The notes under the pieces: model-generated
Seen by the model: the letters and a program-made list of their open reading frames with translations, nothing else
What the model was told of the DNA's origin: nothing
Databases searched by the model: none
Made by a program: the position numbers and the translations under genes
Shown here: positions 2 through 26,026 of the stretch, piece after piece
Numbering within the stretch: position 1 is the stretch's first letter
Layout: each line of letters opens with the position of its first letter
From: Belnapia moabensis DSM 16746
GTDB lineage: Bacteria; Pseudomonadota; Alphaproteobacteria; Acetobacterales; Acetobacteraceae
Length of the DNA: 38,348 nt
Direction of reading: 5' to 3'
Assembly (NCBI RefSeq): GCF_000745835.1
Contig: NZ_JQKB01000050.1
Coordinates: 1 to 38,348, forward strand

Positions 2-961
2 CTCGGCTTCACCGTGACGCTGGACGCGCCCACCACCAGCACCGTGACCGTGGCCTATACCACGGCAACCGGTGGCACGGCCGCGGCGTCTGATTTTACC
101 GCTACCGCTGGCACGCTGAGCTTTGCGCCGAATGAAACCAGCAAAACCGTCGCGGTCCCGACCGTGGAAGACAGCGCCGTTGAGCTCAACGAGACCTTGT
201 TCTTCAACTTGTCAGATCCGACCGGCGCCGCGCTGGCGGATGCAGCGGCGACGGGCACCATCATCAATGACGACAGCGCCCCGATTGTTGTTCCAGGGAT
301 GCGGGTGTCGGATGTCAGCGTGACCGAGGGCGGCGTGCTGAATTTTGCGGTGACACTCAGCGCGGCCAGCACCGCCCCGATCACGGTGAATTACAGCACG
401 GCCAATGGCACCGCCATCGCTCCGGCCGACTACACAGCAGCATCAGGCACGCTGACCTTTGCCCCACAGCAGACCCGTATCGTGGTCGCGGTGGGGACCA
501 CCGATGAAACCGCCTATGAGAATAACGAAACCATGTTCCTCCGCCTGACGGGACCCAGCGGGGCGACGCTCGTCGATGCCGAAGGCCAGGGCCTGATCAA
601 CAACAACGACGTGGCCGGGCGCACCATCACCGGCACAAGCGGCAGCAACCTGCTCACGGGGGGTGGTGGCGACGACGTTATCACTGGCGGCCGAGGCAAC
701 GACACCATGACCGGTGGTGCTGGTGCGGATGATTTTCGCCTCACCCGACTGGACGGCTTCGACCGGATCAGGGACTTCGCTCCCGGCCTGGATGATCTGG
801 TGTTCAGCGGCATCGCCAGCAGCAGCGTGCAAGTCCGTACGGGCAGCTATGCTGGGGTCACTGGCAGCGATGTGTTTTATGGCACCAGCGGCGATCATGT
901 GTTCCTGCAAGGCGTGACGCCGGCCCGGTTCAGCATCGCCACTGATGCGGTTTTTGTCTGA
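2..961 (+). CDS. Calx-beta / RTX-repeat exported protein, 3' end (5' end outside window)
   Basis: The frame is open to the window edge, so only the C-terminal 319 residues are visible; the GTG at 14 is an internal Val codon. Two Calx-beta modules are seen. The first covers about residues 1-95 and ends ...GTIINDD. The second covers about residues 100-200, with the typical VNYSTANGTA and DYTAASGTLTF strands. After these come glycine/aspartate nonapeptides of the RTX type (GGGGDDVITGG, RGNDTMTGGAGADDF) and a short tail typical of type I secretion substrates. Known for the family: Calx-beta and RTX repeats bind Ca2+ and occur in large adhesins and exoproteins secreted in one step by ABC-HlyD-TolC machines. 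A type I secretion operon lies at 12967-18199, so pairing is plausible but unproven. A decayed copy of its C-terminal part follows at 1050-1320. The exact role (adhesin or enzyme carrier) cannot be told from this fragment. Confidence 0.88.
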   Translation, partial: LGFTVTLDAPTTSTVTVAYTTATGGTAAASDFTATAGTLSFAPNETSKTVAVPTVEDSAVELNETLFFNLSDPTGAALADAAATGTIINDDSAPIVVPGMRVSDVSVTEGGVLNFAVTLSAASTAPITVNYSTANGTAIAPADYTAASGTLTFAPQQTRIVVAVGTTDETAYENNETMFLRLTGPSGATLVDAEGQGLINNNDVAGRTITGTSGSNLLTGGGGDDVITGGRGNDTMTGGAGADDFRLTRLDGFDRIRDFAPGLDDLVFSGIASSSVQVRTGSYAGVTGSDVFYGTSGDHVFLQGVTPARFSIATDAVFV

Positions 962-2089: not shown

Positions 2090-3421
2090 GTGCCATTTTC
2101 GGAAATTCTGGCGGTTTCGGGAATCAAGGCCGTGATAACAGCGCCTGGTACGCTCACCACCGATCTCGGGGGAAATCAGTTTAAAGTCGTCCTGGCGGAC
2201 GACTTTAGCGCTGGTTACAAACCCTACCATTGGGGCAACGGCTTCAACAGCGGCCTGTATGGCAATGGCGCCTTTCGTTGGAGTACCAGTGACATCAAGG
2301 TCGCCCAAGGCGAGTTGCAGCTGAGCGAAACCCGCCAGGCCAATGGCAGCTGGACGGCCGGTGGGTTTAACAGCTTCCACGCCGGACTCACGATTACCTA
2401 TGGCACCGTTGAGTTCGATGCGCGGGTTGAAAGCGCGCAGGGTACGATGGCCGCGATCTTGATGTGGCCGCAATCGAATGTCTGGCCGCGGGATGGCGAG
2501 ATTGATATTCTCGAAACGCCGAAGAAAATGGCGATGCATACCGTGCACTGGGCAGGCGCCCGCAATGAGGATGTGTATAGTCCTCAGTTCAGTGGGATCG
2601 CGACGGATCAATGGCACCATTATAAGATGACCTGGTTGCCGACCCTGATCACGATTGAGGTGGATGGCGCCACGGTCGCCAAGTGGAGCAACCCGCAGAT
2701 CATCCCACACACGGCCATGGGTTTCGGCGCCATGGGTTATGTGGCCAATAGCAGTGAGGCCTGGATCGGCGGAGCGCCCGATCATACCACGCCGAGCAAG
2801 GTCACGACCCATATCGATAATGTGGTGATGGCCCAATGGATAGGCACCGGCCCGGTCGTGAACCCTATTCCGCCAGTGGCCCAGGCACCGGTTGTTGTTT
2901 CTGACAGCGTGCCGCCTGCCGTCGCGGCTCCACCTCCCCCACCGTCACCGGATCTGCGGCCGGTTTACCGGTTTTTCGATCAAGACACGACGGGCGAGCA
3001 TTTTTACACAACCGACGCGCAGGAGAAGGCCGTGATTATGGGCTCACTGCCCAGCTATGTGTATGAGGGTGCCCAATGGGCGGTTCCCGTCCAATCCGCC
3101 AAGACCGTCGATGTGCATCGCTTTTTGGATACGGTGAGCCGGACCCATCACTTTACGACGGATCGCCAGGAGGTGGACTACATTCGCAAGGCCTTGCCGG
3201 CCTTCCACTATGAGGGTGTGGCCTTTCAGGCCTACGCGGAGACGGCCACCAGCGCTGGGCTGATAACCCTGCAGCGGTTTTTTCACCCAGCCACCGGCAA
3301 CCACCATTTTGCGCTCCCGGATGAGGCAGTGGCGATTCAACAGGGTTGGGTTGGCCCGGGCTGGCTGTATGAGGGCCCCGGGTTCACGGTGCACGCCGTG
3401 TCCCATGATATGGTGCTGTAG
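2090..3421 (+). CDS. GH16-family glycoside hydrolase with C-terminal DUF5648-type repeats
   Basis: 443 residues from a GTG start; an in-frame TAA at 2078-2080 bounds the start, and no strong Shine-Dalgarno is seen. Residues about 30-250 form a GH16 beta-jelly-roll with the signature EIDILE at 137-142 (Glu137 nucleophile, Asp139, Glu142 acid/base by family rule), preceded by W-P-R-D-G. A proline-rich linker (about 262-288) leads to three repeats of about 45 residues of the form [YH]RF[FL]D...T[GR]xHF[YT]T...Y.YEG (about 290-435). I recognise these as the DUF5648-type repeat often fused to bacterial surface hydrolases. Known role of GH16: cleavage of beta-1,3/1,4-glucans, or of bacterial exopolysaccharide in ExsH-like enzymes; the substrate here is unknown. 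No signal peptide is visible, so export may use the type I route or the start may be mis-set. All catalytic residues are present. Confidence 0.88.
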   Translation: MPFSEILAVSGIKAVITAPGTLTTDLGGNQFKVVLADDFSAGYKPYHWGNGFNSGLYGNGAFRWSTSDIKVAQGELQLSETRQANGSWTAGGFNSFHAGLTITYGTVEFDARVESAQGTMAAILMWPQSNVWPRDGEIDILETPKKMAMHTVHWAGARNEDVYSPQFSGIATDQWHHYKMTWLPTLITIEVDGATVAKWSNPQIIPHTAMGFGAMGYVANSSEAWIGGAPDHTTPSKVTTHIDNVVMAQWIGTGPVVNPIPPVAQAPVVVSDSVPPAVAAPPPPPSPDLRPVYRFFDQDTTGEHFYTTDAQEKAVIMGSLPSYVYEGAQWAVPVQSAKTVDVHRFLDTVSRTHHFTTDRQEVDYIRKALPAFHYEGVAFQAYAETATSAGLITLQRFFHPATGNHHFALPDEAVAIQQGWVGPGWLYEGPGFTVHAVSHDMVL

Positions 3422-5755: not shown

Positions 5756-7267
5756 ATGCAGATAGCGCAATGGCTGGGTCTATTGGCCGCCTCCAGCGCG
5801 GTCACAGGTGTGCTGGCGTACCGGTTGGGGCGCCGTCGTCTGGCTGATCTGGCGGACCAGCATCGCCGTCTGCAGCAGCAGGCCGCGGAGAACGAGTCGC
5901 TCTTGCAGGCCTATGCCCTGGGTGCGGTGTTGATCCGCACGCTGGATGGCACGATCACTCATTGGTCGGCAGGCTGTGAGGCGCTGTTTGGCTTTGATGC
6001 AAAGGCCGCGGTGGGTCGCAAGGTCCAGGAGCTGCTGTCCACACGGTTCCCGCCAGGCGGCCTCCGAACCGTGCAGGAGGAGCTGGTGCGCCGGGGCGAA
6101 TGGCGCGGCGAGTTGCGCCATCGCCAGCGCAGCGGCGACGCCCTGGTGGTGGCGTCGCATTGGGCCTTGCGGCGCGATCCCCTCTCGCAGACGCCGATTG
6201 GTGTGGTGGAGCTGCATGCCGATGCGTCGATGCTGAAAGCGGCGGAGGCGGCGTTGCGGGCGGAAGAGGCGCGTCTGCTGCTGGCGCAAGAGGTGGCGGG
6301 GGTTGGGATTTGGGAATGGGATCCGGGAACCGACCTGTTTGCCTGGACGCCTGAACAATACGGGCTGTCGCGCGATCCCACGGCGCCACCGACGGAGCGG
6401 TCGCTCGAGGCGTTTCTCACCTGTGTGCATCCGGACGACCAGGGTCGCATTCGGGAGGCCACACGCCAGGCGCTGGCGACGGGTGAGTATGATGTGGAGT
6501 TCCGCCTGCTGCGCTCGACCCAGGACAAGGCGTGGGAGGCCCGCTGGCTGTCCGGGCGTGGACGGCGCATGCCGGCGCCAGCGGGCAAGCTGGGCCCAAT
6601 CCTCGGCATTCATATGGACATCACCCAGCGGAAAGAGGCGGAAGCCCGCCAGGAATTGTTGATGCGCGAGGTGGATCATCGCGCCAAAAACGCCTTGGCG
6701 GTGGTCCAGGCGGTGTTGCGGCTGACCAAGGCGGAGACGCCGGAGGCGTTTGGGCAGGCGATTGCGGGCCGGGTGTCCGCCTTGGCCCGTGCGCATACCC
6801 TGCTCACCAAATCGCAGTGGTCGGGCGCGAGCCTGACCGCCTTGATCCGCGGCGAGCTGGCGCCCTTTGTTCCCTCCACCGCCATGCCGCGCGTCAGCCT
6901 CTCAGGACCCGAGCTGACCGTGGCGCCGGTGGTCGCACAGCCGCTCTCCATGATGCTGCACGAACTGGCCACCAACGCGGCCAAATATGGCAGCCTGTCG
7001 GTGCCGGACGGGACGCTGCAGCTATCCTGGTCGGTGGATTTCGAGGCCGACCGCTTGGTGCTGCAATGGACCGAACGGGGCGGCCCGCCCGTGACCGGCA
7101 CAGCCTTCGCTGAAGGCTTCGGCTCCCGGATGATTCGTGCCACCATTCAGGATCAGCTCGGCGGCACCGTCCAGTTCAAATGGCAGCCGGAAGGTTTGAC
7201 CTGCTCCGTGGTGCTGCCCATGCGTCGTAGCTTGACCCGCAGTCTTGCCAAGGCAAACGAAAATTAG
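5756..7267 (+). CDS. HWE-family sensor histidine kinase with two PAS domains
   Basis: 503 residues from the ATG at 5756, chosen because a membrane segment (about residues 5-23, LLAASSAVTGVLAYRLG) follows directly and upstream residues carry no domain. A short coiled coil is followed by PAS-1 (about 50-155) and PAS-2 (about 175-295, ending GIHMDITQRKEAEA). The kinase core is of the HWE/HisKA_2 type: phospho-acceptor His308 in EVDHRAKN, N-box HELATNAAKYG (His402, Asn407), the W-x-E motif WTERGG (438-443) and GFGSRMI. HWE kinases are common in alphaproteobacteria and often phosphorylate separate receivers. It lies 22 bases before the receiver-PAS gene and the RpfC-like gene, so it is probably the first gene of a three-gene signalling operon. 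The membrane-anchored PAS domains suggest a cytoplasmic signal; the ligand is unknown. Confidence 0.9.
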   Translation: MQIAQWLGLLAASSAVTGVLAYRLGRRRLADLADQHRRLQQQAAENESLLQAYALGAVLIRTLDGTITHWSAGCEALFGFDAKAAVGRKVQELLSTRFPPGGLRTVQEELVRRGEWRGELRHRQRSGDALVVASHWALRRDPLSQTPIGVVELHADASMLKAAEAALRAEEARLLLAQEVAGVGIWEWDPGTDLFAWTPEQYGLSRDPTAPPTERSLEAFLTCVHPDDQGRIREATRQALATGEYDVEFRLLRSTQDKAWEARWLSGRGRRMPAPAGKLGPILGIHMDITQRKEAEARQELLMREVDHRAKNALAVVQAVLRLTKAETPEAFGQAIAGRVSALARAHTLLTKSQWSGASLTALIRGELAPFVPSTAMPRVSLSGPELTVAPVVAQPLSMMLHELATNAAKYGSLSVPDGTLQLSWSVDFEADRLVLQWTERGGPPVTGTAFAEGFGSRMIRATIQDQLGGTVQFKWQPEGLTCSVVLPMRRSLTRSLAKANEN

Positions 7268-7289
7268 CGCTGCTCATCGCGGAGACCTC

Positions 7290-8108
7290 ATGGCCACGAT
7301 AGTGATTCTGGACGACAGCGCCATCAATCGCAGCATTTATGCCAAACTGGTGACCATGGTTGCCGACGGCATGATCACTGAGTTGTTTTCGCAGCCCCTG
7401 GATGCGCTGGAGTGGCTTGAGCACAATACCGCTGACCTGATCATCACCGACTTCAGTATGCCGCAGATGGACGGCGCCAGCTTTACCGAGCGGGTGAGAG
7501 CCCTGCCGGCCCTGGCCCGGACCCCGGTTTTGGTGGTCACGGCCTATGACGACCGCAGCTTCCGCGTGCGGGCGCTGGATGCCGGCGCCACGGATTTTCT
7601 GCAAAGCCCGATTGATCACTTTGAGTTTGTGACCCGGGTGCGCAATCTGCTGGCCTTGAGCCCTCGCTTGACGGGCGAGGCCGAGCCCGACCTGGAGCCG
7701 CCGCGGCTGCTCCCGCCTGTGGACGCGGCGACCTTGGCGCTGGTCCTCGATCTGGTTCCCGCGCTGATCAGCATCACCAATCGCGCCGGGGTCTATCTCT
7801 ATGCCAATGCCAGGTTTGCGGCATCGCTGGGACTGACGCCGGCCGAGGTGTCGGGCCGTCATGTGCTGACCCTGCTCGGGCCTGAGCGCGGTGCCGCCAG
7901 CCAGGCCCAGGATCAGCGGATCTGCGAGCGGGCCGAAGCCGTGCCGCCCTACACCGAAGCCTGGCCGCCCACCGCGGCCGCGGGGCCGGGCCTGGTTCGC
8001 ACCAGTAAGATGCCCCTGCCGGACCCGTCCGGTGCGATCATCGCCGTGCTGACCACATCATGGCCCCTGCTGGAGGCCGCCGCGCCGGCGGCGCAGGCGG
8101 GGCTCTGA
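7290..8108 (+). CDS. Receiver-PAS response regulator in the position of RpfG
   Basis: 272 residues from the ATG at 7290, with GGAG seven bases upstream; the longer frame from 7245 lacks this. Residues 1-125 are a receiver domain: acidic pair Asp8-Asp9, phospho-acceptor Asp54 in LIITDFSMPQMDG, and switch Thr84. The usual lysine of the K-P motif is replaced: the sequence is FLQSPID, with Ser106 before Pro107. Residues about 145-262 form a PAS domain (DLVPALISITNRAGVYLYAN). There is no DNA-binding, HD-GYP, GGDEF or EAL output. From memory, the receiver resembles that of RpfG (PLDALxW, RxRxLP and AGxxDFL stretches), and RpfG is encoded beside RpfC in xanthomonads; here the HD-GYP half is absent. 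Its TGA overlaps the next start (TGATG), which suggests translational coupling. Likely phosphorylated by the RpfC-like or HWE kinase (inference). Confidence 0.85.
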   Translation: MATIVILDDSAINRSIYAKLVTMVADGMITELFSQPLDALEWLEHNTADLIITDFSMPQMDGASFTERVRALPALARTPVLVVTAYDDRSFRVRALDAGATDFLQSPIDHFEFVTRVRNLLALSPRLTGEAEPDLEPPRLLPPVDAATLALVLDLVPALISITNRAGVYLYANARFAASLGLTPAEVSGRHVLTLLGPERGAASQAQDQRICERAEAVPPYTEAWPPTAAAGPGLVRTSKMPLPDPSGAIIAVLTTSWPLLEAAAPAAQAGL

Positions 8109-10630
8109 TGCCGCGCCTGGCGCGGCTTCCTGGGCCCAAGCGTGGCTTGCGGGTGTTGCGTGGCCAGGTCGGCACCGAGCAGGAGATGAGTTTCAATCGC
8201 CTGATCTTTGCCCTGGCCTTCGTAATCTACTTTGCCACGGCCGGCCAGGCGATTGCCGCCGACGCACGGCCCGCTCTCCTGTGGTGGATCGCGTTCAGTC
8301 TTGCCATCTTCGGGCATATCCGCTGGCGGCCGGCCCTCAGCACCCCACGGCGCAGCGTGGCTTTGCTGCTGGATATGGGGTTTCTCACCTGGTTCTTGCA
8401 TATCGGCGGCGCATTGGCGGCGCCGTTCTTCCCGATCTATGTCTGGGTGATGCTGGGCAATGGCGCGCGGTTTGGCGTGCCGTGGCTGGCCGCGGCCATG
8501 GCGACCTTTGCCCTGGGGTTCGGCTGGGTGATCGCCACCACGCCGTTCTGGCAGGATCTCCCGCATCTGTCGGTGGGCTTGCTGATCGCCCCGGCCATTC
8601 TCGGCATTTATGCCATGACGCTGATCCGCAAGCTGTCGCAGGCTCGGCAACTGGCCGAGCAGGCGAATGAGGCGAAGGGGCAGTTTCTCACCAGCGTCAG
8701 CCATGAACTGCGCACACCGCTCAACGCCATCATCGGCATGGGCGGGCTGTTGCGTCATACCCGGCTGGATCCCGAGCAGCAGGACATGGTCCGCACGGTG
8801 GATGCCGCGGCCAAGTCGCTGCTATCGTTGATCAACGGGATCCTGGATTTCGCCCGGATTGAGGCCGGCAGCACGGTGGTGCGACCCGAGGCCTTTGATC
8901 CCGCCACGCTGCTGCGCGAGGTGCGCATGCTGTTGCTGGCACAGGCGCGCGAGAAGGGCTTGCAGCTCACCATTCATATCACGGCACGAACCCCCAATTG
9001 CCTGGTCGCCGATCGCCGCCATCTGCGCGACATCTTGCTCAATCTGGCCGGCAATGCGGTGAAGTTCACCGAGGCCGGGGGGGTGGTGATGGCGCTGGAT
9101 GCCAGCCCCGCCGGCCCGCAGCGCTGGCTGCTGCGGGGCGAAGTCAGTGACACCGGCATCGGCATCGCGGCGGAGGCGCGGTCGCGCATTTTCCAGCGCT
9201 TCACCCAAGCCGACGCCACAATCATCAACCGCTTTGGCGGCACGGGGCTGGGGCTGGCCATTTGTGAGGGCCTGGTGCGGCTGCTGGGGGGCGAGATCGG
9301 GGTGGAGAGCCAGCCTGGCCAGGGCAGTGTGTTCTGGTTCACCGCCCCTCTGCCGGCGCCGGATTCCGGGCCGACTCAGGCAGCCGCCCCGGCCGGGATA
9401 AGCCTTCTCCTGGCCACGCCGGCGCCCGAGGCGGCAACCCCGCTCAGCACCGCCCTGCAGAACCTTGGATTGTCGGTGGTGGTGTGGCGCCGGAGCGTCG
9501 ACGACCTGGCCGAACTCTCGGGCCTGCCCCGCCACCAGGCGCCGCTGCAGTGTTTGCTGGTGCAGCGACACCATCCCGCACTGCCGCCGCCCGGGCCGCC
9601 GTCCACGCCTGATCGCATCGCCGCGGCCGGCGACGGCGTGGTCGTCGCCCTATGCGATGAGGCGCCCGAGGGCCTGCCGGACCTGGTGGTCCGCCAGCGC
9701 ACGCTCAGCCTGCTGTCCGGCACCCCGGCCGCGGAGACGCTGCACCGGGTGCTCCACCATGCGCTGGCCCAATTGCCTGGCCTGGAGGAGGGAGTCTTCG
9801 AGGGGCGCGCCATGGCCGAGGCCGCGCCTTCGGGGCGACGCATCCTGGTGGCCGATGACAACCGGGTGAATCGGGCGGTCACCCGGAAGATCCTGGAGCG
9901 GGAAGGCCATCAGGTGGTTCTGGTGACGGATGGTGACGCGGCGCTGGATGCCCTCGAGGCCGGGCCGTTTGACCTGGTTCTCATGGATCTCAACATGCCG
10001 GAGCTGGATGGCATTACCGCCACCAAGCTGTATCGGGTGGCTGCCCTGGGGCGCCCGCACCTGCCCATTATCGGCTTGACCGCGGATGCTTCGCCCGAGG
10101 CGCAGCAGCGGAGCCGTGAGGCCGGCATGGATGCGTGCTTGATCAAGCCCATCGAGCCGGCCGCCCTGGCGGCGACCGTGGCGACCTATCTGCGCCCCGC
10201 CGCGGCGCCCCGGCCCGCCCGGCCGGACAGCCTGCCGGCAACGCCGGACCCGCCGTCGCTGCCGGTGGACCCGCAGGTTACCGACACGCTGGAAAGGTTG
10301 GGCGGCCAGGAATTCGCCACCGAGCTCATGACCCAGTTTCTGGAGGATGCCACGCTGGAGTTGGACCGGCTAAGAGCCGCGGCGGCGCGTGCCGACGTGC
10401 CGCAATTCCGCGCCTCGGCCCATGCGCTGCGGAGCGGCGCCGCCAATATGGGTGCCCTCGGCGTGTTGGCCCTGTGCAAAGCGGCTGAGGCCATGCCGGC
10501 TGCGGAGATCCCGGTGGGTGGCCCGCGCCAGGCGGCGCTGCTCGCGGTGGAGCTGGCGCGTCTGCGGCAGGCGCGCCCAGGCGGTGAGCGCCCCCTGCCG
10601 GGCCCGGGATCGGGCGCGCCGCCGGCATGA
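8108..10630 (+). CDS. rpfC: RpfC-like hybrid sensor histidine kinase (TM-HisKA-HATPase-receiver-Hpt)
   Basis: 840 residues from the ATG at 8108, overlapping the previous stop by one base. A short N-terminal segment (RGQVGTEQEM, 18-27) precedes about five membrane helices (about 30-185), including VWVMLGNGARFG, which matches the WVxxGNGxRxG pattern I recall from Xanthomonas RpfC. Then come HisKA with His199 in SVSHELRTPLN, HATPase (N-box LNLAGNAVKFTEAG, DTGIGI, GGTGLGLAI), a receiver-like region without acidic pocket (about 425-560), a true receiver (Asp627 in LMDLNMPELDG, Lys680) and Hpt (His772 in SAHALRSGAANMG). This order equals RpfC, the kinase that senses DSF fatty acids and controls RpfF. 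The convergent rpfF homologue at 11030-12025 strongly supports the call. N-terminal sensor residues are only partly kept: Glu24 aligns with RpfC Glu19, while neighbouring residues differ. Confidence 0.85.
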   Translation: MPRLARLPGPKRGLRVLRGQVGTEQEMSFNRLIFALAFVIYFATAGQAIAADARPALLWWIAFSLAIFGHIRWRPALSTPRRSVALLLDMGFLTWFLHIGGALAAPFFPIYVWVMLGNGARFGVPWLAAAMATFALGFGWVIATTPFWQDLPHLSVGLLIAPAILGIYAMTLIRKLSQARQLAEQANEAKGQFLTSVSHELRTPLNAIIGMGGLLRHTRLDPEQQDMVRTVDAAAKSLLSLINGILDFARIEAGSTVVRPEAFDPATLLREVRMLLLAQAREKGLQLTIHITARTPNCLVADRRHLRDILLNLAGNAVKFTEAGGVVMALDASPAGPQRWLLRGEVSDTGIGIAAEARSRIFQRFTQADATIINRFGGTGLGLAICEGLVRLLGGEIGVESQPGQGSVFWFTAPLPAPDSGPTQAAAPAGISLLLATPAPEAATPLSTALQNLGLSVVVWRRSVDDLAELSGLPRHQAPLQCLLVQRHHPALPPPGPPSTPDRIAAAGDGVVVALCDEAPEGLPDLVVRQRTLSLLSGTPAAETLHRVLHHALAQLPGLEEGVFEGRAMAEAAPSGRRILVADDNRVNRAVTRKILEREGHQVVLVTDGDAALDALEAGPFDLVLMDLNMPELDGITATKLYRVAALGRPHLPIIGLTADASPEAQQRSREAGMDACLIKPIEPAALAATVATYLRPAAAPRPARPDSLPATPDPPSLPVDPQVTDTLERLGGQEFATELMTQFLEDATLELDRLRAAAARADVPQFRASAHALRSGAANMGALGVLALCKAAEAMPAAEIPVGGPRQAALLAVELARLRQARPGGERPLPGPGSGAPPA

Positions 10631-11029
10631 GCCCAGGCATGGCTGGGAGATCGCTGGGAGAGCGGGGCCATCGCACCACGCCACGCCCGCGAGGATCCCG
10701 GCCAGCCAGGGCCGGAGGGCGGGGATCCGGGCGCGTCAGCCTCGTGGCGTGACCGGACCTGGCAGGACGCGGTGGCGCAGGCGGCGGCGGTGGGAGTGGC
10801 GCGCAAGCGCCATCGCGGGCCCGATCACCACCCGAGGCGGGACCCTGACCATCGCCCATGTCCAGGCATGGCGGGAGGGGCTGGAGCCGCTACGCTGCCG
10901 GGGGTGCTGGGCAGTCACGCTGCCTGGATGGGTCGGGTCGGGGTTGAACCACCGAGTCAGGGGTGCCCGGGCCGCCACGCGCGGCGCGCGCGGAGCCCCA
11001 GATGGCTTGCCCGGACCGAGCGGTCTGGC
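10631..11029. other. Intergenic region between convergent rpfC-like and rpfF-like genes
   Basis: About 400 bases separate the two converging stop codons. No gene is supported. A GC-rich inverted repeat CCGGCC-N6-GGCCGG (10698-10715) and a weaker CCCAG...CTGGG just after the rpfC stop could be termination hairpins, but neither is followed by a T-run. Confidence 0.35.
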
Positions 11030-12025
11030 CTAGGCGGCGCAGGCCGGCATGCTGGTCAGACCCGGCAGCGGGTCGCCGGCGGCGCCGGCCTGGTCGGTAT
11101 CGGCCATCCGCCGATCCTGGGCGCCGGTGAGCCGGTGCATGCGGCGCAGATCCAGGGCGGTCAGCCGGATCGCCGCGTCAGCCCAGATCTCCACCACCTC
11201 GCGCAGTTCCTGCAGCGTCACCGGATCAACCCGGCGGCGCGCCCGGTAGGTGGCCTGATGCGCATTGTGCCAGCGGCTGTTGCGGTCAACATAGGCCAGC
11301 AGGGCGCTGTCACCCTCCCCGTCCTCGGCCAGCACATCGATCAGCCCCATCGCGTGCAGTTCGGCTGCGGTGTGAATGCGGCCGCTGAGAATGAATTTTT
11401 CGGCCGCCACCCGGCCCAGGCGGCGCGCCAGGAAACTATAGGCGCCCATGCCCGGGAACAGGTTGAACAGCACCTCCGGCAGACCGAATTTGGCGCTGCG
11501 TTCGGCGATAATGATGTCATGCGCCAAGGCGCATTCAAACCCGCCGCCCAAGGCGTCACCCTGGACCAGCGCAATCGTCACCAGGGGCAGGTCGAGCGCC
11601 ACATGGGAGCGGTGGATGGCCTCCACGGCGGCGTAGCCATACTGCCGTAGTCCCGTCAGATCGCCACGTTGGATCAGCTGCTGGAACAGGCCGAGATCCC
11701 CGCCGAGGTTAAAGATGCCAGGGATGCCGGAGGCGCAGACAAAATAGCGCAAGGCTGGCTCGGCTTGGTCCAGCGTCGCCTGGTACAGCGCCGGCATCGC
11801 CTGCTGCATGGCGGCAACATCGCGCAGCAGTTGCGGGCTGAAGCACGGGCGGCCCTGCGGCCGGAGGCGGCACCAGACCAGGCTGCGCGTCGCATCCAGC
11901 GTTACATCCAGGGTCTCGTAGCGGCCGAGGGCGGGCACCGCCTGCGAGTGGAACGGCCCGGGCAGTGGATCGGCCAGGCTTTGGCCGGCGACGTCCAGGG
12001 CAAGCGGCGCACGAACGAAGGTCAT
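11030..12025 (-). CDS. rpfF: RpfF-type DSF synthase (crotonase-fold enoyl-CoA hydratase/thioesterase)
   Basis: 331 residues from the ATG at 12025, which has GGAG seven bases upstream; a longer frame from a TTG at 12106 is less likely. The protein is a crotonase with the RpfF-specific stretch rather than a generic beta-oxidation one: FNLGGDLGLF (105-114), GDALGGGFECALAHD (156-170) and GLPEVLFNLFPGMGAYSFLA (181-200). The two catalytic glutamates of RpfF (Glu141 and Glu161 in Xanthomonas, 20 residues apart) match Glu164 and Glu184 here, also 20 apart. Known role: conversion of 3-hydroxyacyl-ACP to cis-2-unsaturated fatty acids (DSF family) by dehydratase plus thioesterase activity. It converges on the RpfC-like gene as rpfF does on rpfGHC in xanthomonads. 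It is about 40 residues longer than the roughly 290-residue Xanthomonas enzyme, mostly at the ends. No rpfB-like acyl-CoA ligase is seen nearby. Confidence 0.9.
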   Translation of the reverse strand: MTFVRAPLALDVAGQSLADPLPGPFHSQAVPALGRYETLDVTLDATRSLVWCRLRPQGRPCFSPQLLRDVAAMQQAMPALYQATLDQAEPALRYFVCASGIPGIFNLGGDLGLFQQLIQRGDLTGLRQYGYAAVEAIHRSHVALDLPLVTIALVQGDALGGGFECALAHDIIIAERSAKFGLPEVLFNLFPGMGAYSFLARRLGRVAAEKFILSGRIHTAAELHAMGLIDVLAEDGEGDSALLAYVDRNSRWHNAHQATYRARRRVDPVTLQELREVVEIWADAAIRLTALDLRRMHRLTGAQDRRMADTDQAGAAGDPLPGLTSMPACAA

Positions 12026-12966: not shown

Positions 12967-14655
12967 GTGTCCAGTTCTGCTTGTGCGATCGCGCATGCCC
13001 CCGATACCTGGTTGACCAAGCCGTTCCGGGAAGTGCTGCGCCGCTCCGGCATGCGACTGTTGCCGCCGGTCCTGGCGGCCACCTTGATGATCACAATCCT
13101 GGCCTTGGCGCTGCCGCTCGCCTTGCTGCAGGTCTATGACCGCATCCTGCCCAACGCCTCCCTGGGCACCCTCACGGTCCTGGCCCTGGTGGTGATCATG
13201 GCCCTTCTGCTGGAGGCGCTGCTGCGCATTGTCCGCGGCAATATGCTGGCGCGGATTGCCGCGATCGCCGAGGCGCAGGCCCACCGGCAGGCCATGGAGC
13301 ATGTTCTGCGCGCGCCTACCGCGGCCCTCACCAGGCATGGCAATGGCTACTATGCCGAACGCCTGTCGGCGATCGGCACGCTGCGGGAGGCGTGGTCGGG
13401 TCCCGCCATGCAGGCCATGCTCGATTTGCCCTTTGCCCTGCTGTATTTGCTGGCGCTGGGCTATCTGGCGGGCAGCCTGGCCCTGGTGCCGCTCGCGGCG
13501 CTGGCCGGTATGGCGGCGGTGGCTTGGCACAATGGCCGCCGGGTGCGCCAGGCCTCCCGGGTGTTGAGCGAGGCCGAGGAACGGCGCTTTAACTTCCTGT
13601 TCGATGCCCTGCATGCCGCGCATTCCGTGAAGATCCTGGGCGCGGAGCGGCTGCTCGAGCGCCGCTACGATCGGCTGCAGGGCTGTTCCGCCAAGCTTCG
13701 TAACGATGTTGGCGCGGCCAACGCTGCGGGCCAGGAGAGCGGTCTGTTGCTGGCGCAGCTGGCCACGCTGGGCGTCGCCGCCATGGGCTGTCTCATGGTG
13801 CTAGCAGGCCAGCTCAGCGTCGGCGGTCTGGGCGCCTGCACCATGCTGACCGGCCGGACCATGCAACCCTTGCTCGGCGGCATTGCGCTGTGGGCGCGGT
13901 TGCAGTCCCTGGCCGAAGCCAGGCGCCGCATTGCCGAGATTTCCGTGCTGCCCCAGGAGCCGCGGCCGGACCTGCCGGCGCTGACGCTGGCCGCCGGTCG
14001 GGTGTCGTTGCAGGGGATTCGCGCCGGAGCACTGGGGCCCGACACCTGGCTGTTTGCGGATCTGGATCTGGAGGTTGCCCCGGGCGAGATGGTGGGCATC
14101 ACCGGAGCCAATGGCTCCGGCCGCTCCACCCTGCTGCGGCTGATTGCCGGCGAGGTGCGACCGGCCGCCGGGCGCGTTTGCATCGACGGCCAGGATTTGG
14201 CGGCGGTCGACCCGCCCAGCACCCGTCCGGGGATCGCCCTGGTGCCGCCGGATCCGGCCCTCGTCCGCGGCACCTTGCTGCAAAATCTCACCCTGTATCA
14301 GCCGCATCTGGAGGAGGAGGCCCTGGCCCTGGCCCTCCAGCTCGGGCTTGACCAGGTGGCGGGGCAGCTCCCGGGGGGCTGGCACACCCAGGTCGGGACC
14401 GCCGCCACGCCGCTGCCGCGTGGGGTGTCCCAGCGCATTGGCGTGGTGCGCGCGCTGTTGCAGGCCCCGCGAATTCTGCTGCTGGATGACGTCACCGCCC
14501 AGCTGGACTCCGAGGGTGATGTGCAGCTCGCCCAGCTGCTGAGTGCGCTGCGCGGCCAGGTCACCGTGGTGATCGTCACCCACCGCCGGTCGACCCTTGG
14601 CCTGGCCAACCGGGTGCTCACCTTGCACCAAGGTCGCCTGGAGCCGGTGCTGTGA
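12967..14655 (+). CDS. Type I secretion ABC transporter, permease-ATPase with degenerate ATP site
   Basis: 562 residues from GTG at 12967, with a GAGGGAAG ribosome site about nine bases upstream. Residues about 30-300 are an ABC exporter membrane domain of the PrtD/LapB kind (LPLALLQVYDRILPNAS near the start). The nucleotide-binding domain deviates at key points: Walker A is GANGSGRST (380-388) with Arg386 in place of the invariant Lys; the signature region reads LPRGVSQR (483-490) instead of LSGGQxQR; Walker B ends LLLDD with Asp508 in place of the catalytic Glu; the H-loop His539 is kept. It is therefore probably the poorly hydrolysing half of a heterodimer whose partner is encoded immediately downstream (GTGA overlap). 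The substrate is likely an RTX-type protein (inference). First gene of a three-gene operon. Confidence 0.88.
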   Translation: MSSSACAIAHAPDTWLTKPFREVLRRSGMRLLPPVLAATLMITILALALPLALLQVYDRILPNASLGTLTVLALVVIMALLLEALLRIVRGNMLARIAAIAEAQAHRQAMEHVLRAPTAALTRHGNGYYAERLSAIGTLREAWSGPAMQAMLDLPFALLYLLALGYLAGSLALVPLAALAGMAAVAWHNGRRVRQASRVLSEAEERRFNFLFDALHAAHSVKILGAERLLERRYDRLQGCSAKLRNDVGAANAAGQESGLLLAQLATLGVAAMGCLMVLAGQLSVGGLGACTMLTGRTMQPLLGGIALWARLQSLAEARRRIAEISVLPQEPRPDLPALTLAAGRVSLQGIRAGALGPDTWLFADLDLEVAPGEMVGITGANGSGRSTLLRLIAGEVRPAAGRVCIDGQDLAAVDPPSTRPGIALVPPDPALVRGTLLQNLTLYQPHLEEEALALALQLGLDQVAGQLPGGWHTQVGTAATPLPRGVSQRIGVVRALLQAPRILLLDDVTAQLDSEGDVQLAQLLSALRGQVTVVIVTHRRSTLGLANRVLTLHQGRLEPVL

Positions 14656-16865
14656 CAGTCCTGCCACGGCGATCCCCGAGCGCGGCCGCCGACCCGGCAC
14701 TGCCCGCCAGCAGCAGCCCGATGCCCCTGATGGAATTGCCGCCCCTGCTGTTGGCACCATCCGACCTCACCCGCTGTCTCTCCGCCGCGCTGGCTGTGCT
14801 GGGCTGGCGCGGTGGCCCGGATGACCTGCTGGCCGCGCTGCCGCATGCGCAAGCTCAGATCGACGTTACCGACTTGCGCAATGCGCTGGCCATCCTCGGC
14901 TACCCCACCCGGCTGGCGCAGCTCCGCCGGACAGCCATCCATCCGCGCCTCCTTCCGGCGCTGCTGCTGCAACCCGGCCGACCGGCGGCCGTGCTGTACC
15001 TGGACCCCACCGGAGCGATGCTGCGGTTTGACGGCGGCACTGGCCAGGTCGCGCCCTGCGGCCCAGATGGGCTGCGGGGCACCCTGGTGCACTTCACCGA
15101 GATTGAGCCAGCCCCACGGCAGAACTGGTTTGCCGCCATCGCTCGCCGCTTCACCGGCGATCTGCCGGGTTTGCTGGGCGCCAGCGCCTTGATTGCGCTG
15201 CTCGGGCTCGGCGTGCCGCTGTTTACCATGCATGTGTTTGACACGGTGATTGCCGGCAACAGCCCTGCCAGCCTGCCTATGCTGGCCGGCGGTGCGCTGG
15301 CGGCGCTGCTGTTTGAGATTCTGTTCCGCATGCTCCGGCAGCGCGCCTTGTTGCGCATTGGCGAGCGCCTGGACCGCCTGGTCTCAGCCGGCGTGTTCAG
15401 CCAGCTCATGGCGTTGCCCACCGCCCTGGTCGAGCGGGCGGGAACCGCCTCGCAGGTGTCCCGGCTGCGGGACTTTGCCACCATCCGCGACTTCCTGACC
15501 GGCAGCTTCGCCCTCGCCGCCCTGGATCTGCCCTTCACGCTGCTGGTGTTGGTGTTGATGGTCGCGTTGGGCGGCTGGGTGGCGATCGTGCCACTCGGCA
15601 CGGCCGCGGCGCTGGGCTTGTTGTTCCTGCTGTCCCGCGGTGCCGTGCGACGCGCCATCAGCGCGGCCGCGCAGGCAGCGCAGGCGCGCGATGCGCTGGC
15701 GGTGGAAGCGCTGGAGGCGGCGCAGACGCTCAAGAATGCCGCGGCTGAAGAGCGCTGGATTGGTCGCTACGCGGCCGCGGCCGCCCGGGCGGCGCAGGCC
15801 TCGGCGCGGGTGGCCACGCTCACCGGCTTGGTTACGGTGGTCAGCCAGGCGCTGATGACCGGCTCCGGCCTGGCCGCTGTGGTGGTGGGGGCGGTCGCGG
15901 TGCTGCATGGCGGCATGAGTGCCGGCTCGTTGATCGCCGGCATGATGCTGCTCTGGCGCGTGCTTGGCCCGCTGCAGACCGGCTTCGCCATGCTATCACG
16001 CTGGGAGCAAACCCAGGCCTCCATCCGCCAGGTGGATTCCCTGATGGCCTTGGAAACCGAACGGCCGGCGGCGGCCGAGGCGCGGATGGCGCCGCCGGAG
16101 GCCGGCGCTATCAGTTTCCAGCGGGTGACGCTGCGCTATCTGCCGCAATCGGAGCCAGTGCTGGCCGGTGCGAGCCTGACGATCCGTCCGGGCGAGGTCG
16201 TCGCCGTGACAGGTGGCGACGGCGCCGGCAAATCCAGCGTGCTGCGCCTGGTGGCGGGCCTGTACCGGCCGCAAGGTGGGCTGGTGCGGATTGATGGCCA
16301 TGACGTGCGCGCCTTTGATCCGGCGGTGCTCCGTCGCAGCATCGGCTGGGTCCCGCAAGCGCCGGAAATGCTGTACGGCACCATTGCGCAGAACCTGCGC
16401 CTGGCCCATCCCACCGCCGAGGACGACCAGTTGCGGCGCGCGGCCCGAGAAGCGCGGGTTCTCGCGGCCATTGAGATGCTCCCGGAGGGGTTTGATACCC
16501 GGGTCGGCGACAATCTCAGCACGCGCTTGCCCCGCAGTATTCTCCTACGGATTGCCCTGGCCCGCGCGCTACTGCGGGATGCGCCCATCCTGCTGCTGGA
16601 CGAGCCGGCGACGGGGCTGGACGATGTGTGCGCCGAAGCCTTTGCCGAGGTGGTGAAGGCCCGGCGGGGCCGTTGCACCATCCTAATGGCCACCCACCGG
16701 CCCAGCCACATGCTGTTGGCCGACCGCGTGCTGCGCCTGCGCGATGGTCAGATTGAAGAGGCGCCGCCCCGGCCCGGGCCGCCGCAGCCGATGCTGCGCG
16801 TCCCGGTCTTTCCCCCCGAAGCGGCCGCATCGGTGTTCCCGGTGCGGGCAGGAGCGTCCGCATGA
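14652..16865 (+). CDS. Type I secretion ABC transporter with C39-like domain, catalytic partner
   Basis: 737 residues from a GTG that overlaps the upstream stop by four bases. Residues about 35-150 resemble a C39-like domain (LGWRGGPDDLLAALPHA, AILGYPTRLAQL) but show no catalytic Cys/His pair, so it probably docks substrate rather than cleaving it, as known for HlyB-type transporters. The membrane domain (about 160-450) starts with LLGLGVPLFTMHVFDTVI. In the ATPase domain, Walker A GGDGAGKSS (521-529, Lys527) and Walker B ILLLDEP (Asp650, Glu651) are intact, but the signature is LSTRLPRSILLRIALARALL (622-641), lacking the GGQ core. With the preceding gene it would form a heterodimer with one competent and one dead ATP site. 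Its stop overlaps the adaptor gene start (ATGA). Confidence 0.9.
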   Translation: MTVLPRRSPSAAADPALPASSSPMPLMELPPLLLAPSDLTRCLSAALAVLGWRGGPDDLLAALPHAQAQIDVTDLRNALAILGYPTRLAQLRRTAIHPRLLPALLLQPGRPAAVLYLDPTGAMLRFDGGTGQVAPCGPDGLRGTLVHFTEIEPAPRQNWFAAIARRFTGDLPGLLGASALIALLGLGVPLFTMHVFDTVIAGNSPASLPMLAGGALAALLFEILFRMLRQRALLRIGERLDRLVSAGVFSQLMALPTALVERAGTASQVSRLRDFATIRDFLTGSFALAALDLPFTLLVLVLMVALGGWVAIVPLGTAAALGLLFLLSRGAVRRAISAAAQAAQARDALAVEALEAAQTLKNAAAEERWIGRYAAAAARAAQASARVATLTGLVTVVSQALMTGSGLAAVVVGAVAVLHGGMSAGSLIAGMMLLWRVLGPLQTGFAMLSRWEQTQASIRQVDSLMALETERPAAAEARMAPPEAGAISFQRVTLRYLPQSEPVLAGASLTIRPGEVVAVTGGDGAGKSSVLRLVAGLYRPQGGLVRIDGHDVRAFDPAVLRRSIGWVPQAPEMLYGTIAQNLRLAHPTAEDDQLRRAAREARVLAAIEMLPEGFDTRVGDNLSTRLPRSILLRIALARALLRDAPILLLDEPATGLDDVCAEAFAEVVKARRGRCTILMATHRPSHMLLADRVLRLRDGQIEEAPPRPGPPQPMLRVPVFPPEAAASVFPVRAGASA

Positions 16866-18199
16866 GCGGTTCAGAAACCCGATTGGTGACCCTGCCCGCG
16901 GCCAGCCGCGTCGCCAGGCCCGATGCTCATATGCTGGCGCTGGAAGAGGTCCGGGTGCCCGGGCTGGAGCGCAGCGTGGTGCTGGGCGCGGGCCTGCTGT
17001 TGGTGGGGTTTTTTGCCTGGGCCACGGCCACCCGGATCCCGGAGATCGCGGTAGGGGTGGGCGAGGTGGTGCCCGCCCTGGCGGCCGCCCCGGTCCAGCA
17101 CCTGGAAGGCGGCATTGTGGAGGCGGTGCTGGTCGCCGAGAATGCGGTGGTGGAGGCCGGGCAACCTCTGCTCCGGATGAACGATGCCGCCGCCCAGGCC
17201 GATTTGGGCCAGTTGCGGATCCGCAATGCCTCGCTGCGGTTGCAAGCCCTGCGGTTGGCGGCCTTGGTGGCGGGAACAAGCGAGGTGATGCCGCCTGACG
17301 TTGGCCTGATGGCGGCCACGCACCGGGATGCCCTGGTAGCCCGATTGCAGGTTTTGGCGGATCGGCGGGCGGTGCTGGCCGCCCAGGTGGCCCAGCGACG
17401 CAGCGAGTTGACAACGCTGGCGGTTCAGATCGCTGCCCTCGAGCGGCAAATCGCGCTGCATGCCACGGAGTTGGAGGTGCGGGAGGGTTTGGGGCAGAAC
17501 GGGCTGACAACCCGCGTGGCCATCCTGGAGGCCCGGCGGCTGCTGATGACCACCCAGGCGGAGCGGGACCGCCTGACCGGCCAAGCCGGCACGGTGCGTC
17601 GGACCTTGGAGGAGGCAGAAGCGCGGTTGGCGGAGACCCGGTCCAGCGTCATCGACGAAGCGCGGCAGGAGGCGGCCCGCGTGGCGCTGGAGATTGCCGA
17701 AACCGATGAGGGTATGCGGCGTCTGGCGGATCGCGCCGAGCGCATTCTGGTGCGAGCGCCCAGCACCGGCATGGTCCGTGGCCTGGCCGTGCAGCGACCA
17801 GGGACCGTGGTACAAGCGGGCGCGCTGATGGCCGAGATCATGCCGCAGGACACCCCTCTGGTGGTGGATGTGCGGCTGCAGCCGCGGGATATCGGCTTCA
17901 TTCGCCTGGGCCAACCCGTGGATATCAAGGTTCAGGCTTTTGACTATGCCCGCTTTGGCACCTTGCGCGGTGAGGTGGAGCGCATCTCCGCCGGCACCTT
18001 CGTCGATGACCAGCGGCAGCCCTATTATCGGGCACGGGTCGCCCTGTCCCAAGCCTTTGTCGGTCACGAGGCGGGTGGCGCCCGGCTGGTGCCGGGGATG
18101 ACGGTCCAAGCCGACATCAAAACCGGCGAAAAATCGGTGCTGCAATACCTGCTCAAACCCATCTATGCGGCCATGGCGAGCTCGTTCCGCGAACGCTGA
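16862..18199 (+). CDS. HlyD/PrtE-family periplasmic adaptor of type I secretion
   Basis: 445 residues from the ATG at 16862, overlapping the ABC gene by four bases. A short cytoplasmic tail is followed by one membrane helix (about 39-58, SVVLGAGLLLVGFFAWATA), a split lipoyl-like half (VGEVVPALAAAPVQHLEGGI, about 65-100), a long alpha-helical hairpin (about 115-295, with many Glu/Arg/Leu heptads) and the returning lipoyl and beta-barrel parts (RAPSTGMVRGLAVQRPGTVV; VPGMTVQADIKTGEKSVLQY). The ending ...VLQYLLKPI is typical of HlyD/PrtE adaptors. Known role: a trimeric or hexameric adaptor joining the inner-membrane ABC exporter to a TolC-like outer-membrane channel. No TolC homologue is in the window, so one must be encoded elsewhere. 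It is the last gene of the operon; a 10-bp hairpin follows at 18267. Confidence 0.93.
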   Translation: MSGSETRLVTLPAASRVARPDAHMLALEEVRVPGLERSVVLGAGLLLVGFFAWATATRIPEIAVGVGEVVPALAAAPVQHLEGGIVEAVLVAENAVVEAGQPLLRMNDAAAQADLGQLRIRNASLRLQALRLAALVAGTSEVMPPDVGLMAATHRDALVARLQVLADRRAVLAAQVAQRRSELTTLAVQIAALERQIALHATELEVREGLGQNGLTTRVAILEARRLLMTTQAERDRLTGQAGTVRRTLEEAEARLAETRSSVIDEARQEAARVALEIAETDEGMRRLADRAERILVRAPSTGMVRGLAVQRPGTVVQAGALMAEIMPQDTPLVVDVRLQPRDIGFIRLGQPVDIKVQAFDYARFGTLRGEVERISAGTFVDDQRQPYYRARVALSQAFVGHEAGGARLVPGMTVQADIKTGEKSVLQYLLKPIYAAMASSFRER

Positions 18200-24121: not shown

Positions 24122-24973
24122 TAATCCAGCTCGCCCGGAAACGGCGCTGGGTCACCGTCGTCATAGCAAGGGCCGAGTGGTTCGAGACCGGAGGCTTCGG
24201 TCTGGTGAGCGGTGACCGGCATGGCTGCTGTCCTGATGTCTGCGCTCTCGATACCGTGATCGCGGGGTAGAAAGAACAGAATTCGTTGGCTCGCTTGTCG
24301 TCACCATCGCCCAAGCCCGCATCGCTGCGGATTTGGCGCGACTGGCTGAGGGCCTGACCAACCGGGCAAGCATTCACATCAGCCGACCCGACGCCGGGAG
24401 CGGCCGAGACACCGCTTCTTGTCAGCGTGGCAGGCTTAGCGAGCCCTGTCCGCCCACGACGAGATCGCCATTCTCGTCCCTCGCCGCCGCGACCACATCT
24501 CCGCCAGCGGGTTGCACGCCGCAAGGGTGCGGGCGTTCAAGCTGTGGGCAGAGATCAGCCGTATTGCCGCTGCCGCCTGAAACTCTGCTCTGCCCTTGCA
24601 TGGCAGCGCGGTGGCCGCAGCGCCGGCAACGTCGCGGTGCCCATCCCGTCGCTGGGCGGCCTGCCGACGGCGCCAGCGTCGCGCCGCTCCGAGCATTGGT
24701 CATGCGCCGGGCGATCGGCGGGTGTCTGGCCCCAGGCACGACGCCGCTGGCCAGGGATCAGGCCCTCATCGGCTGCTGAATTGCGGCGGCTGCCGCTGGG
24801 CGAATGGTGCGCAACAAGGCGGACTATCCACCGCGCCCCAAGGCGGCTTGGCCGTTCCGCGCAAGCAAATGAGGCACCGGATGACAGGCATAGAACAGGC
24901 CAACGCGGTATGAGACCGCCAGCAGGATCGGCTGTTGCTGACGGAGCAGCATTCCTGCCAAAGGATAGCTCAC
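24122..24973. other. Relic-rich non-coding stretch
   Basis: About 850 bases. An exact 20-base word, GAGGGCCTGACCAACCGGGC, occurs here (24348-24367) and at 23397-23416, which suggests both sides derive from related sequence. The plus strand at about 24450-24580 reads SAHDEIAILVPRRRDHISAS continuing to ...WAEISRIAAAA-stop, a gene-like fragment of about 45 residues whose upstream frame is closed by a stop. I could not assign it to a family. Confidence 0.3.
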
Positions 24974-26026
24974 ATGCCGTCTGCGCCATTACCGATCAAT
25001 GAGGCTGAGCGGCTTGCCGCCTTACGGTCCTACAAGGTGCTCGATACTGCCTGTGAGACCACCTTCGACAACATGGCGGAACTCGCCGCCAAACTCACCG
25101 GCAGCCCGGTTGCGCTGGTCTCGTTGATCGATGCTGACCGGCAGTGGTTCAAAGCCCGGCACGGCCTGGAGGCGACCGAGACACCACGCGATCTCGCCTT
25201 TTGTGCGCATGCGATCCTGACCCCGGACCAGATCCTGGAAGTGCCGGACACGCACCGTGATCCGCGCTTCGCCGACAACAGCTTTGTCACGCAGGAGCCT
25301 CATATTCGCTTCTACGCTGGCGTGCCGCTCGTCAATCCGGAGGGCTTCGCACTTGGCACACTCTGCATCATTGACGGCCGGCCCCGAGAGCTGAGCGCCG
25401 ACCAGAAAGGCATTTTGCAGAAGCTCGCTGATGCGGTGTCCACGACCTTGGAGCTCCGGCGAGCCATGTTGCAGGTGCAGCATCTGGCGCTCACCGACGC
25501 CCTGACCGGGATCGCCAACCGTCCCGCCTTTCTCGACACCCTTGATCGCAGCATCGCTTTACAGAAGCGACACGGCGGCCGCTTCGCCCTGCTGTTTCTG
25601 GATCTCGATGGCTTCAAGCGGGTCAATGATGTGTGGAGCCACGCCACCGGTGACCATGTTCTGCGGGAGATTGCGTCAACGGTGACCGCGAGCTTGCGGC
25701 GCGAAGACGTGGCCGCGCGCTTGGGCGGCGACGAGTTTGCGGTACTGCTGCAAGGGGGCGATGTCGACGGCGCCACAGTGGCAGAGCGGATACGACTGCA
25801 GGTCAAGGCGCGCATGGATCTGGGCGGCTGGCCCGTCACGGCGTCAATCGGTGTTGTTTCATTTTGCACACCGCCTGACGACGTGGCTGAAGCGCTCGCT
25901 GCGGCTGATGAGCTGATGTATGCGGCGAAACTGGCCGGCAAAAATCGGATCACGTATCGGGAGTACAAGCGCGCGAGCTTCTCTGACACTGCCGCGTCCC
26001 GGCGCCACTGCCACACCATGGTGTGA
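24974..26026 (+). CDS. GAF-GGDEF diguanylate cyclase
   Basis: 350 residues from the ATG at 24974 (AAGGA about seven bases upstream). The N-terminus has the NEAERLAALRSYKVLDTACE motif common before GAF domains. GAF covers about 15-165 (VALVSLIDADRQWFKARHGL, PRDLAFCAHAI, FYAGVPLVNPEGFALGTLCI). The cyclase domain covers about 175-335 with an intact active site GGDEF (251-255) and, five residues before it, an RxxD inhibitory site (Arg242-x-x-Asp245). It should therefore make c-di-GMP from two GTP and be feedback-inhibited. There is no membrane segment, so it is soluble and controlled by whatever the GAF domain binds. It stands alone on the plus strand; the hybrid kinase starts about 800 bases downstream. 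The nearby DSF and surface-protein genes fit a biofilm theme, but direct partnership is not shown. Confidence 0.93.
   Translation: MPSAPLPINEAERLAALRSYKVLDTACETTFDNMAELAAKLTGSPVALVSLIDADRQWFKARHGLEATETPRDLAFCAHAILTPDQILEVPDTHRDPRFADNSFVTQEPHIRFYAGVPLVNPEGFALGTLCIIDGRPRELSADQKGILQKLADAVSTTLELRRAMLQVQHLALTDALTGIANRPAFLDTLDRSIALQKRHGGRFALLFLDLDGFKRVNDVWSHATGDHVLREIASTVTASLRREDVAARLGGDEFAVLLQGGDVDGATVAERIRLQVKARMDLGGWPVTASIGVVSFCTPPDDVAEALAAADELMYAAKLAGKNRITYREYKRASFSDTAASRRHCHTMV

Follow-up and report, generated by a model that had tools for sequence, protein, structure and literature searches.

The window analysed here, 38,348 nucleotides from the alphaproteobacterium Belnapia moabensis DSM 16746, carries a predicted four-gene quorum-sensing locus at positions 5756 to 12025. 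It encodes a HWE histidine kinase, a short protein made of a receiver (REC) and a PAS domain (REC-PAS), an RpfC-like hybrid sensor kinase and, converging on these three, an RpfF-like crotonase. The explanation that we favour, at odds slightly better than even (a probability of about 0.55), is a circuit of the diffusible signal factor (DSF) type with an exchanged output, in which RpfC would signal through REC-PAS to the HWE kinase instead of to an enzyme of cyclic di-GMP (c-di-GMP) turnover. A first-pass annotation of this DNA had placed the four open reading frames and the converging rpfF correctly, apart from the start of rpfC. Its guess of an alphaproteobacterial origin also holds, as loci from genomes of the family are identical to named Crenalkalicoccus, Plastoroseomonas and Gluconacetobacter records.

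In the proposed circuit, RpfF would make a fatty-acid signal of the cis-2-unsaturated, DSF type. The membrane kinase RpfC would sense this signal and pass phosphate, via its own receiver and Hpt domain, to the stand-alone REC-PAS protein. REC-PAS, whose PAS domain could perhaps also bind a ligand, would then act on the HWE kinase, which may in turn signal to a further regulator, possibly in the PhyR stress pathway. NF006623 (PRK09191), which we take to be PhyR, has a single match over its cut-off in the genome. REC-PAS is proposed to act on the HWE kinase because the window's clade has lost the GGDEF-EAL half of the relatives' output protein and the operon begins with the HWE gene. That the receiver steers the kinase is suggested by its tie to RpfC, which in the trees predates the HWE kinase, and by five loci in which the receiver is fused to a kinase domain. 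According to the available text of PMC4504480 and PMC5391125, PAS_4 domains can bind DSF, as in RpfS, so the PAS domain of REC-PAS may, as a lead only, sense the signal inside the cell. A more far-reaching proposal joins these parts: a DSF core lacking a c-di-GMP enzyme would report population density via RpfC and a REC-PAS adaptor without the switch Lys to the HWE kinase and on to a phosphorelay, for example that of the PhyR general stress response, and the receiver gene beside rpfC would be a slot for interchangeable outputs (HD-GYP, GGDEF-EAL, HisKA, HisKA_2 or a separate HWE kinase). We hold this combined proposal tentatively, as less likely to be right than wrong.

The output position beside rpfC

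The HWE kinase gene (5756..7267, forward strand, 503 aa), the REC-PAS gene (7290..8108, forward strand, 272 aa) and rpfC run in the same direction, with a gap of 22 nt between the first two and an overlap of 1 nt between the last two. The HWE kinase has an N-terminal hydrophobic stretch, PAS, PAS_3 and HWE_HK, as assigned by motif alignment and by Pfam (HWE_HK 78.7 bits against a cut-off of 22.8, plus PAS_4 and PAS_3). Its motifs are DHRAKN, LHELATNAAKYG, WTE and GFGSR. LHELATN and WTE supply the N-box His and the WxE motif, and none of the 17 aligned rows (14 distinct genomes) has lost the HWE motifs. Identity as a blue-light (LOV) kinase was rejected, as that model matches the kinase half only and below its cut-off.

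REC-PAS (Response_reg and PAS_4 in Pfam) is the front of the relatives' REC-PAS-GGDEF-EAL gene and ends after the PAS domain. From the canonical receiver set of acidic pair, phospho-Asp, Thr and Lys it lacks only the last: D8, D9, D54 and T84 are present, and the switch Lys, equivalent to CheY Lys109, is replaced (FLQSP). Both Asp, the phospho-Asp and the Thr are kept in the receivers of 93 alphaproteobacterial rows, and the Lys is absent from all 93 and present in 7/7 HD-GYP-type rows (some rows being duplicate genomes). A receiver without Lys is a possible hallmark of the alphaproteobacterial DSF branch. Two other explanations of the short gene were discarded. It is not a frameshifted full-length gene, since its stop codon shares a base with the start of rpfC, which leaves no room for a GGDEF-EAL half. 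Nor is a decaying stub supported, the frame being open and the DD, D and T residues being kept in 12/12 HWE rows (10 distinct genomes). The receiver is under constraint, with a dN/dS of 0.017 against 0.30 for the linker and PAS in the one pair compared (L041 and L042), where the HWE kinase gave 0.082, RpfC 0.227 and RpfF 0.12. The AlphaFold model of REC-PAS was good (86.7), and its 50 Foldseek rows were nearly all receivers, which is uninformative about a PAS ligand.

Comparison with relatives puts the short gene in context. A search of 150 family genomes (E 1e-30) detected RpfF in 36, the window's included, and 36 loci were fetched from the other 35 genomes, some of them cut by contig ends. 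A second set of named records comprised the best 80 of 485 confirmed RpfF loci. The sets share eight identical RpfC rows, and locus classes were assigned by domain match. Among the family loci, RpfC occurs with REC-PAS-GGDEF-EAL in 14/36, with a short REC-PAS and a HWE kinase in 6/36 and without a receiver gene in 2/36; a further 2/36 have REC-PAS-GGDEF-EAL without RpfC and 12/36 have neither. RpfC with REC-PAS-GGDEF-EAL prevails among the named loci (57/80), and the HWE arrangement is found in 5/80 (Crenalkalicoccus roseus, Roseomonas pecuniae, R. aerilata, R. nepalensis and one Acetobacteraceae metagenome-assembled genome). The remainder are REC fused to HisKA kinases (3/80), REC-PAS-HisKA_2 (2/80, both Skermanella), REC-PAS-GAF-PAS_3 (1/80, Roseomonas populi), RpfC without a receiver (1/80) and loci with neither (11/80); the six unusual receiver fusions were checked by Pfam. 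Phylum-wide, an HD-GYP gene adjoins RpfC in 7/20 loci. Since the receiver precedes GGDEF-EAL, HD-GYP, HisKA, HisKA_2 or a separate HWE kinase across loci, the gene beside rpfC is, at the level of predicted domains, one conserved receiver with exchangeable outputs.

Some of these loci can be placed more precisely. In Skermanella (L162:2649-4154 and L182:2611-4110, both on the reverse strand) receiver, PAS and HisKA_2 form one gene beside RpfC. The REC-PAS-GAF-PAS_3 gene of Roseomonas populi (L180:6391-8226, reverse strand) ends about where the HWE domain would start and sits across rpfF from rpfC. Genera with RpfF and RpfC include Roseomonas, Inquilinus, Ancylobacter, Kaistia, Stappia, Pseudovibrio, Aureimonas, Acidocella and Gluconacetobacter.

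Phylogeny nests the HWE loci within the GGDEF-EAL ones. In a quick tree of RpfC, seven HWE rows form one clade (support 100) among GGDEF-EAL loci. Ten HWE rows again form one clade in a 93-row RpfC tree from which eight duplicate rows had been removed (support 81), and a tree of concatenated RpfC, REC-PAS and RpfF raises this to 99, inside a group with GGDEF-EAL loci supported at 97. The RpfF of L073, split over two frames, was excluded from the RpfF and concatenated trees, and four HWE genomes (G578, G559, G663 and G601) are in no tree. The simplest history would be a single loss of GGDEF-EAL and a single gain of the HWE kinase. The 93-row tree places rows with kinase-fused receivers mainly at the base of its alphaproteobacterial part, so GGDEF-EAL may be ancestral only for the part in which the window nests, and perhaps not for the whole class.

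The HWE kinase itself was followed through 299 genomes of the family, with at most five candidates scored per genome. Matches at E 1e-60 or better occur in 63 of them. Among these, 12 close orthologs, the window's included, score at least 435 bits and are set off from the next match (335). All 12 directly adjoin REC-PAS (in G601 the contig ends inside REC-PAS), more than expected by chance. RpfC is present in 11 of the 12 loci, in two frames in G578, and RpfF is intact in nine, being split into two frames in G088, reduced to 34 matching residues in G578 and cut off in G601. Neither REC-PAS nor RpfF was found around any of the five next-best HWE paralogs, one of which adjoins a kinase that matches only the catalytic core of RpfC. 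The HWE kinase had been described as an extra gene on the standard rpfGHC layout; this does not fit, as there is no rpfG and the kinase appears where the GGDEF-EAL half is absent. It looks instead like a replacement for the lost output enzyme.

The window's genome is a draft of 282 contigs, 98.95% complete. HD_5 (HD-GYP) has no match in this draft, and neither a REC-HD-GYP gene nor an RpfR-type PAS-GGDEF-EAL gene was found at the locus. None of the 32 matches to a REC-PAS-GGDEF-EAL protein in the draft spans receiver, PAS, GGDEF and EAL. The window's REC-PAS is the match covering 7-277 of the query; C59:2857-4626 covers 114-699 and is, by Pfam, a PAS_7-GGDEF-EAL protein without a receiver. Other partial matches include a Cache-PAS-GGDEF protein that reaches the PAS and a GAF hybrid kinase that touches the receiver. 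The C59 protein, encoded on another contig of the draft and fetched as L241:1295-3778 (reverse strand), resembles the PAS_7-GGDEF-EAL proteins that adjoin RpfF in L113 (46% identity over 554 columns) and in L118 (37% over 452 columns), and is a candidate second DSF-linked c-di-GMP protein.

The putative signal synthase and its receptor

The synthase gene (11030..12025, reverse strand, 331 aa; ECH_1 in Pfam) converges on rpfC, and no sigma-70 promoter-like or terminator-like site was found in 10560-11100. As had been read from the sequence, the protein is an RpfF-type crotonase with two catalytic Glu residues 20 apart. Glu164 and Glu184 sit in GGGFE and GLPEVLFNLFPGMGAYSF, align with Glu residues of the RpfF structure 3m6m and are invariant in 10/10 aligned RpfF sequences. 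Against solved chains in the Protein Data Bank, the top four matches score 173-192 bits (3m6m and 6dgn, named RpfF; 7zq7 and 5fus, named crotonase or hydratase), followed by an ordinary hydratase at 69 bits. In a tree made by a quick method, with long-branch warnings, 56 RpfF rows split from eight ordinary hydratases of the window's genome with support of 87. On these scores and this split we rejected an ordinary enoyl-CoA hydratase, the grouping that the first-pass annotation had named as fatal to its reading. The protein scores 357 bits on the PRK08788 'crotonase' model, above the cut-off of 177, and 210 bits on the NCBIfam RpfF equivalog NF053515, whose cut-off is 550. That cut-off is reached by only 3 of the 62 matching genomes among 398 Pseudomonadota searched, the window's genome being one of the 59 that miss it. 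Because the window's protein falls short of it, as in most matching Pseudomonadota genomes, we label the protein RpfF-like rather than a curated equivalog. Its AlphaFold model was poor (mean pLDDT 67) and was not used.

The RpfC-like kinase (8108..10630, forward strand) has an N-terminal hook, a multi-helix sensor and HisKA, HATPase_c, Response_reg and Hpt domains, each over its Pfam cut-off, in agreement with the earlier domain reading. Its start is probably the ATG at 8108, giving 840 aa, and not 8186, because this upstream ATG overlaps the REC-PAS stop (TGATG at 8106-8110); relatives share the extension. The additional 26 residues (8108..8185, forward strand) align with the part of the Xanthomonas RpfC sensor that binds DSF. 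Five or six hydrophobic stretches were recognised by hydropathy over residues 33-173 (nine overlapping peaks), which agrees with the five-helix sensor first proposed and falls short of proving five helices. Kinship of the sensor, which a non-aligning N terminus would have spoken against, was recovered in two ways. The N-terminal 155 residues match RpfC of L105 and L106 at 102-103 bits by phmmer, these being Xanthomonas-type loci in which RpfF exceeds the NF053515 cut-off and a HD-GYP receiver gene adjoins RpfC, with RpfF and RpfC convergent. By hhalign, a profile of 12 alphaproteobacterial sensors aligns over 177 columns with a profile of five RpfC sensors taken as gammaproteobacterial from the RpfF scores of their loci (99.9% probability, E 5e-34).

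The hook deserves a closer look. As stated in the accessible part of PMC5391125, the N-terminal 22 residues of Xanthomonas campestris RpfC bind DSF, with R15, D17, S18, E19 and Q22 essential; S18T is tolerated there, and R15A, D17A and Q22A weaken sensing. In the alignment, the window has QVGTEQEM against REDSEHAQ in L105. The five essential positions thus read Q, G, T, E and M, that is, one identical, one tolerated and three different. Position 22 is M, I or L across both GGDEF-EAL and HWE rows. The pattern R-P-D-[ST]-E-H-E-M is kept in many alphaproteobacterial RpfC rows, three Roseomonas HWE loci among them, but not in seven core HWE rows that include the window.

Alternatives and relation to known systems

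Several observations weigh against an output exchange as we propose it. The order of kinase gene then receiver gene also fits a flow in the opposite direction. Classical receiver activation is doubtful, as the switch Lys is missing. The changes R15Q, D17G and Q22M alter three of the five residues essential for DSF, so the ligand of RpfC may be other than DSF. The HWE kinase could have other partners, for there are 41 HWE_HK matches in the window's genome, and in G578 (L229) the HWE and REC-PAS frames are open despite an RpfC split over two frames and the loss of most of RpfF. In the two Skermanella fusions, Pfam recognises HisKA_2 but finds no ATPase domain. Finally, the genome has many GGDEF-EAL matches, and a separate c-di-GMP route is possible because the C59 protein resembles proteins that adjoin RpfF.

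The alternative that survives best, though we consider it improbable, reverses the flow: the HWE kinase and RpfC would both act on REC-PAS as a shared phosphate sink or adaptor, and DSF would tune the phosphate of the HWE pathway. A kinase gene directly before its cognate receiver is a common gene order, and in Caulobacter the stand-alone receiver LovR adjoins the HWE kinase LovK. The missing Lys and the gene order give this model room, with the HWE gene 22 nt upstream of REC-PAS and a receiver in which DD, D54 and Thr are present without the switch Lys, as might be the case in a sink. However, the receiver of the relatives is fused ahead of GGDEF-EAL or a kinase domain and so is built as an output controller, and the trees place its link to rpfC before the arrival of the HWE kinase.

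A somewhat weaker case can be made for a signal other than DSF, with RpfF- and RpfC-like proteins that make and sense another acyl compound, or with an RpfC that senses membrane lipids. The low equivalog score (210 of 550 bits) and the different hook residues R15, D17 and Q22 would agree with this. The equivalog cut-off is, however, missed by 59/62 matching Pseudomonadota genomes, the window's among them; the PRK08788 cut-off is exceeded, both catalytic Glu residues are kept, and rpfF and rpfC converge as in Xanthomonas-type loci, so we regard a different signal as unlikely. That the HWE kinase is an unrelated neighbour merely sharing a transcript with the DSF genes is least likely of all: the 41 HWE_HK matches and the persistence of HWE and REC-PAS in G578 would allow it, but 12/12 close orthologs adjoin REC-PAS with no match of at least 435 bits elsewhere among the scored candidates of the 299 genomes, the genes are packed in one direction (22-nt gap, 1-nt overlap), and the HWE kinase has a dN/dS of 0.082 in the one pair compared.

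An exchanged output can be set beside systems already described. The locus resembles Xanthomonas RpfF/RpfC/RpfG in its convergent rpfF and rpfC, the same RpfC domains and a receiver gene directly before rpfC; it differs in having no RpfG or HD-GYP, a REC-PAS without an enzyme half, a HWE gene in first place and an altered hook. With Burkholderia and Cronobacter RpfF/RpfR it shares an RpfF-type synthase, and the window's relatives have a PAS-GGDEF-EAL output, but their output protein starts with a receiver and pairs with RpfC, and loci of the window's clade have no GGDEF-EAL. The alphaproteobacterial REC-PAS-GGDEF-EAL, RpfC and RpfF loci are mostly convergent and have the same receiver, RpfC and RpfF families; the window's clade is set apart from them by the lack of GGDEF-EAL and the presence of the HWE kinase. 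LovK/LovR likewise has a HWE kinase beside a receiver without a classical output domain; the likeness noted here is one of layout, and the pair in the window differs in being tied to RpfC and RpfF and in having a PAS domain on its receiver. Accessory DSF sensors, RpfS in Xanthomonas and BCAM0227 in Burkholderia, are described in the available text of PMC4504480 as signalling to response regulators. In the window, too, a kinase that perceives DSF would address a response regulator and not an enzyme of the HD-GYP or EAL type, but both sensors are accessory to the core route and neither is reported in that text as a HWE kinase replacing the core output.

Reviews, among them one of 2026 (PMC13220807, in the part available), describe two core routes of DSF perception, both ending in c-di-GMP. 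RpfC with REC-PAS-GGDEF-EAL forms a third core arrangement, frequent among the alphaproteobacterial loci seen (57/80 named), and in one clade evolution seems to have put a separate kinase in the place of the c-di-GMP enzyme half. In the open-access literature searched we found no account of RpfC with REC-PAS-GGDEF-EAL in alphaproteobacteria and none of a HWE kinase in a DSF locus, a combination that the first-pass annotation had likewise not seen described; a subscription paper could exist on either. The arrangement suggests rewiring, with one and the same chemical signal now leading to a new response of the cell. Matched relatives, with the same synthase and receptor before different outputs, therefore make a swap of quorum-sensing output directly testable.

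Loci without RpfC and neighbouring genes

Among the family loci with neither RpfC nor the receiver gene, 10 neighbouring genes were scanned in all, from the loci of 9/12 genomes and one more neighbour set. No common partner of RpfF emerged in those scanned, several of which lie at contig ends. Four of these genes encode glucose-6-phosphate dehydrogenase, and the others glutamine synthetase, PrpF, a deaminase, an aminotransferase and, in both loci of G143, a PAS hybrid kinase. In L047, L050, L060 and L069, RpfF without RpfC adjoins the glucose-6-phosphate dehydrogenase gene, and G143 has two RpfF loci (L056 and L067), each beside a PAS hybrid kinase other than RpfC. Alphaproteobacterial-type RpfF loci are also found under the records Mycobacterium sp. 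KBS0706 (L137) and Terriglobia bacterium (L171), possibly from mislabelled or contaminated assemblies.

Elsewhere in the window, two ABC transporters and an HlyD-type adaptor (12967-18199, forward strand) form a type I secretion-like group, divergent from rpfF across about 940 bases. A Calx-beta/RTX protein (14-961, forward strand) and a GH16 glycosidase with DUF5648 (2090-3421, forward strand) are possibly secreted products. Further downstream lie a GAF-GGDEF cyclase (24935-26026, forward strand) and a CHASE3-PAS hybrid kinase that carries REC and Hpt domains (26771-29647, forward strand).

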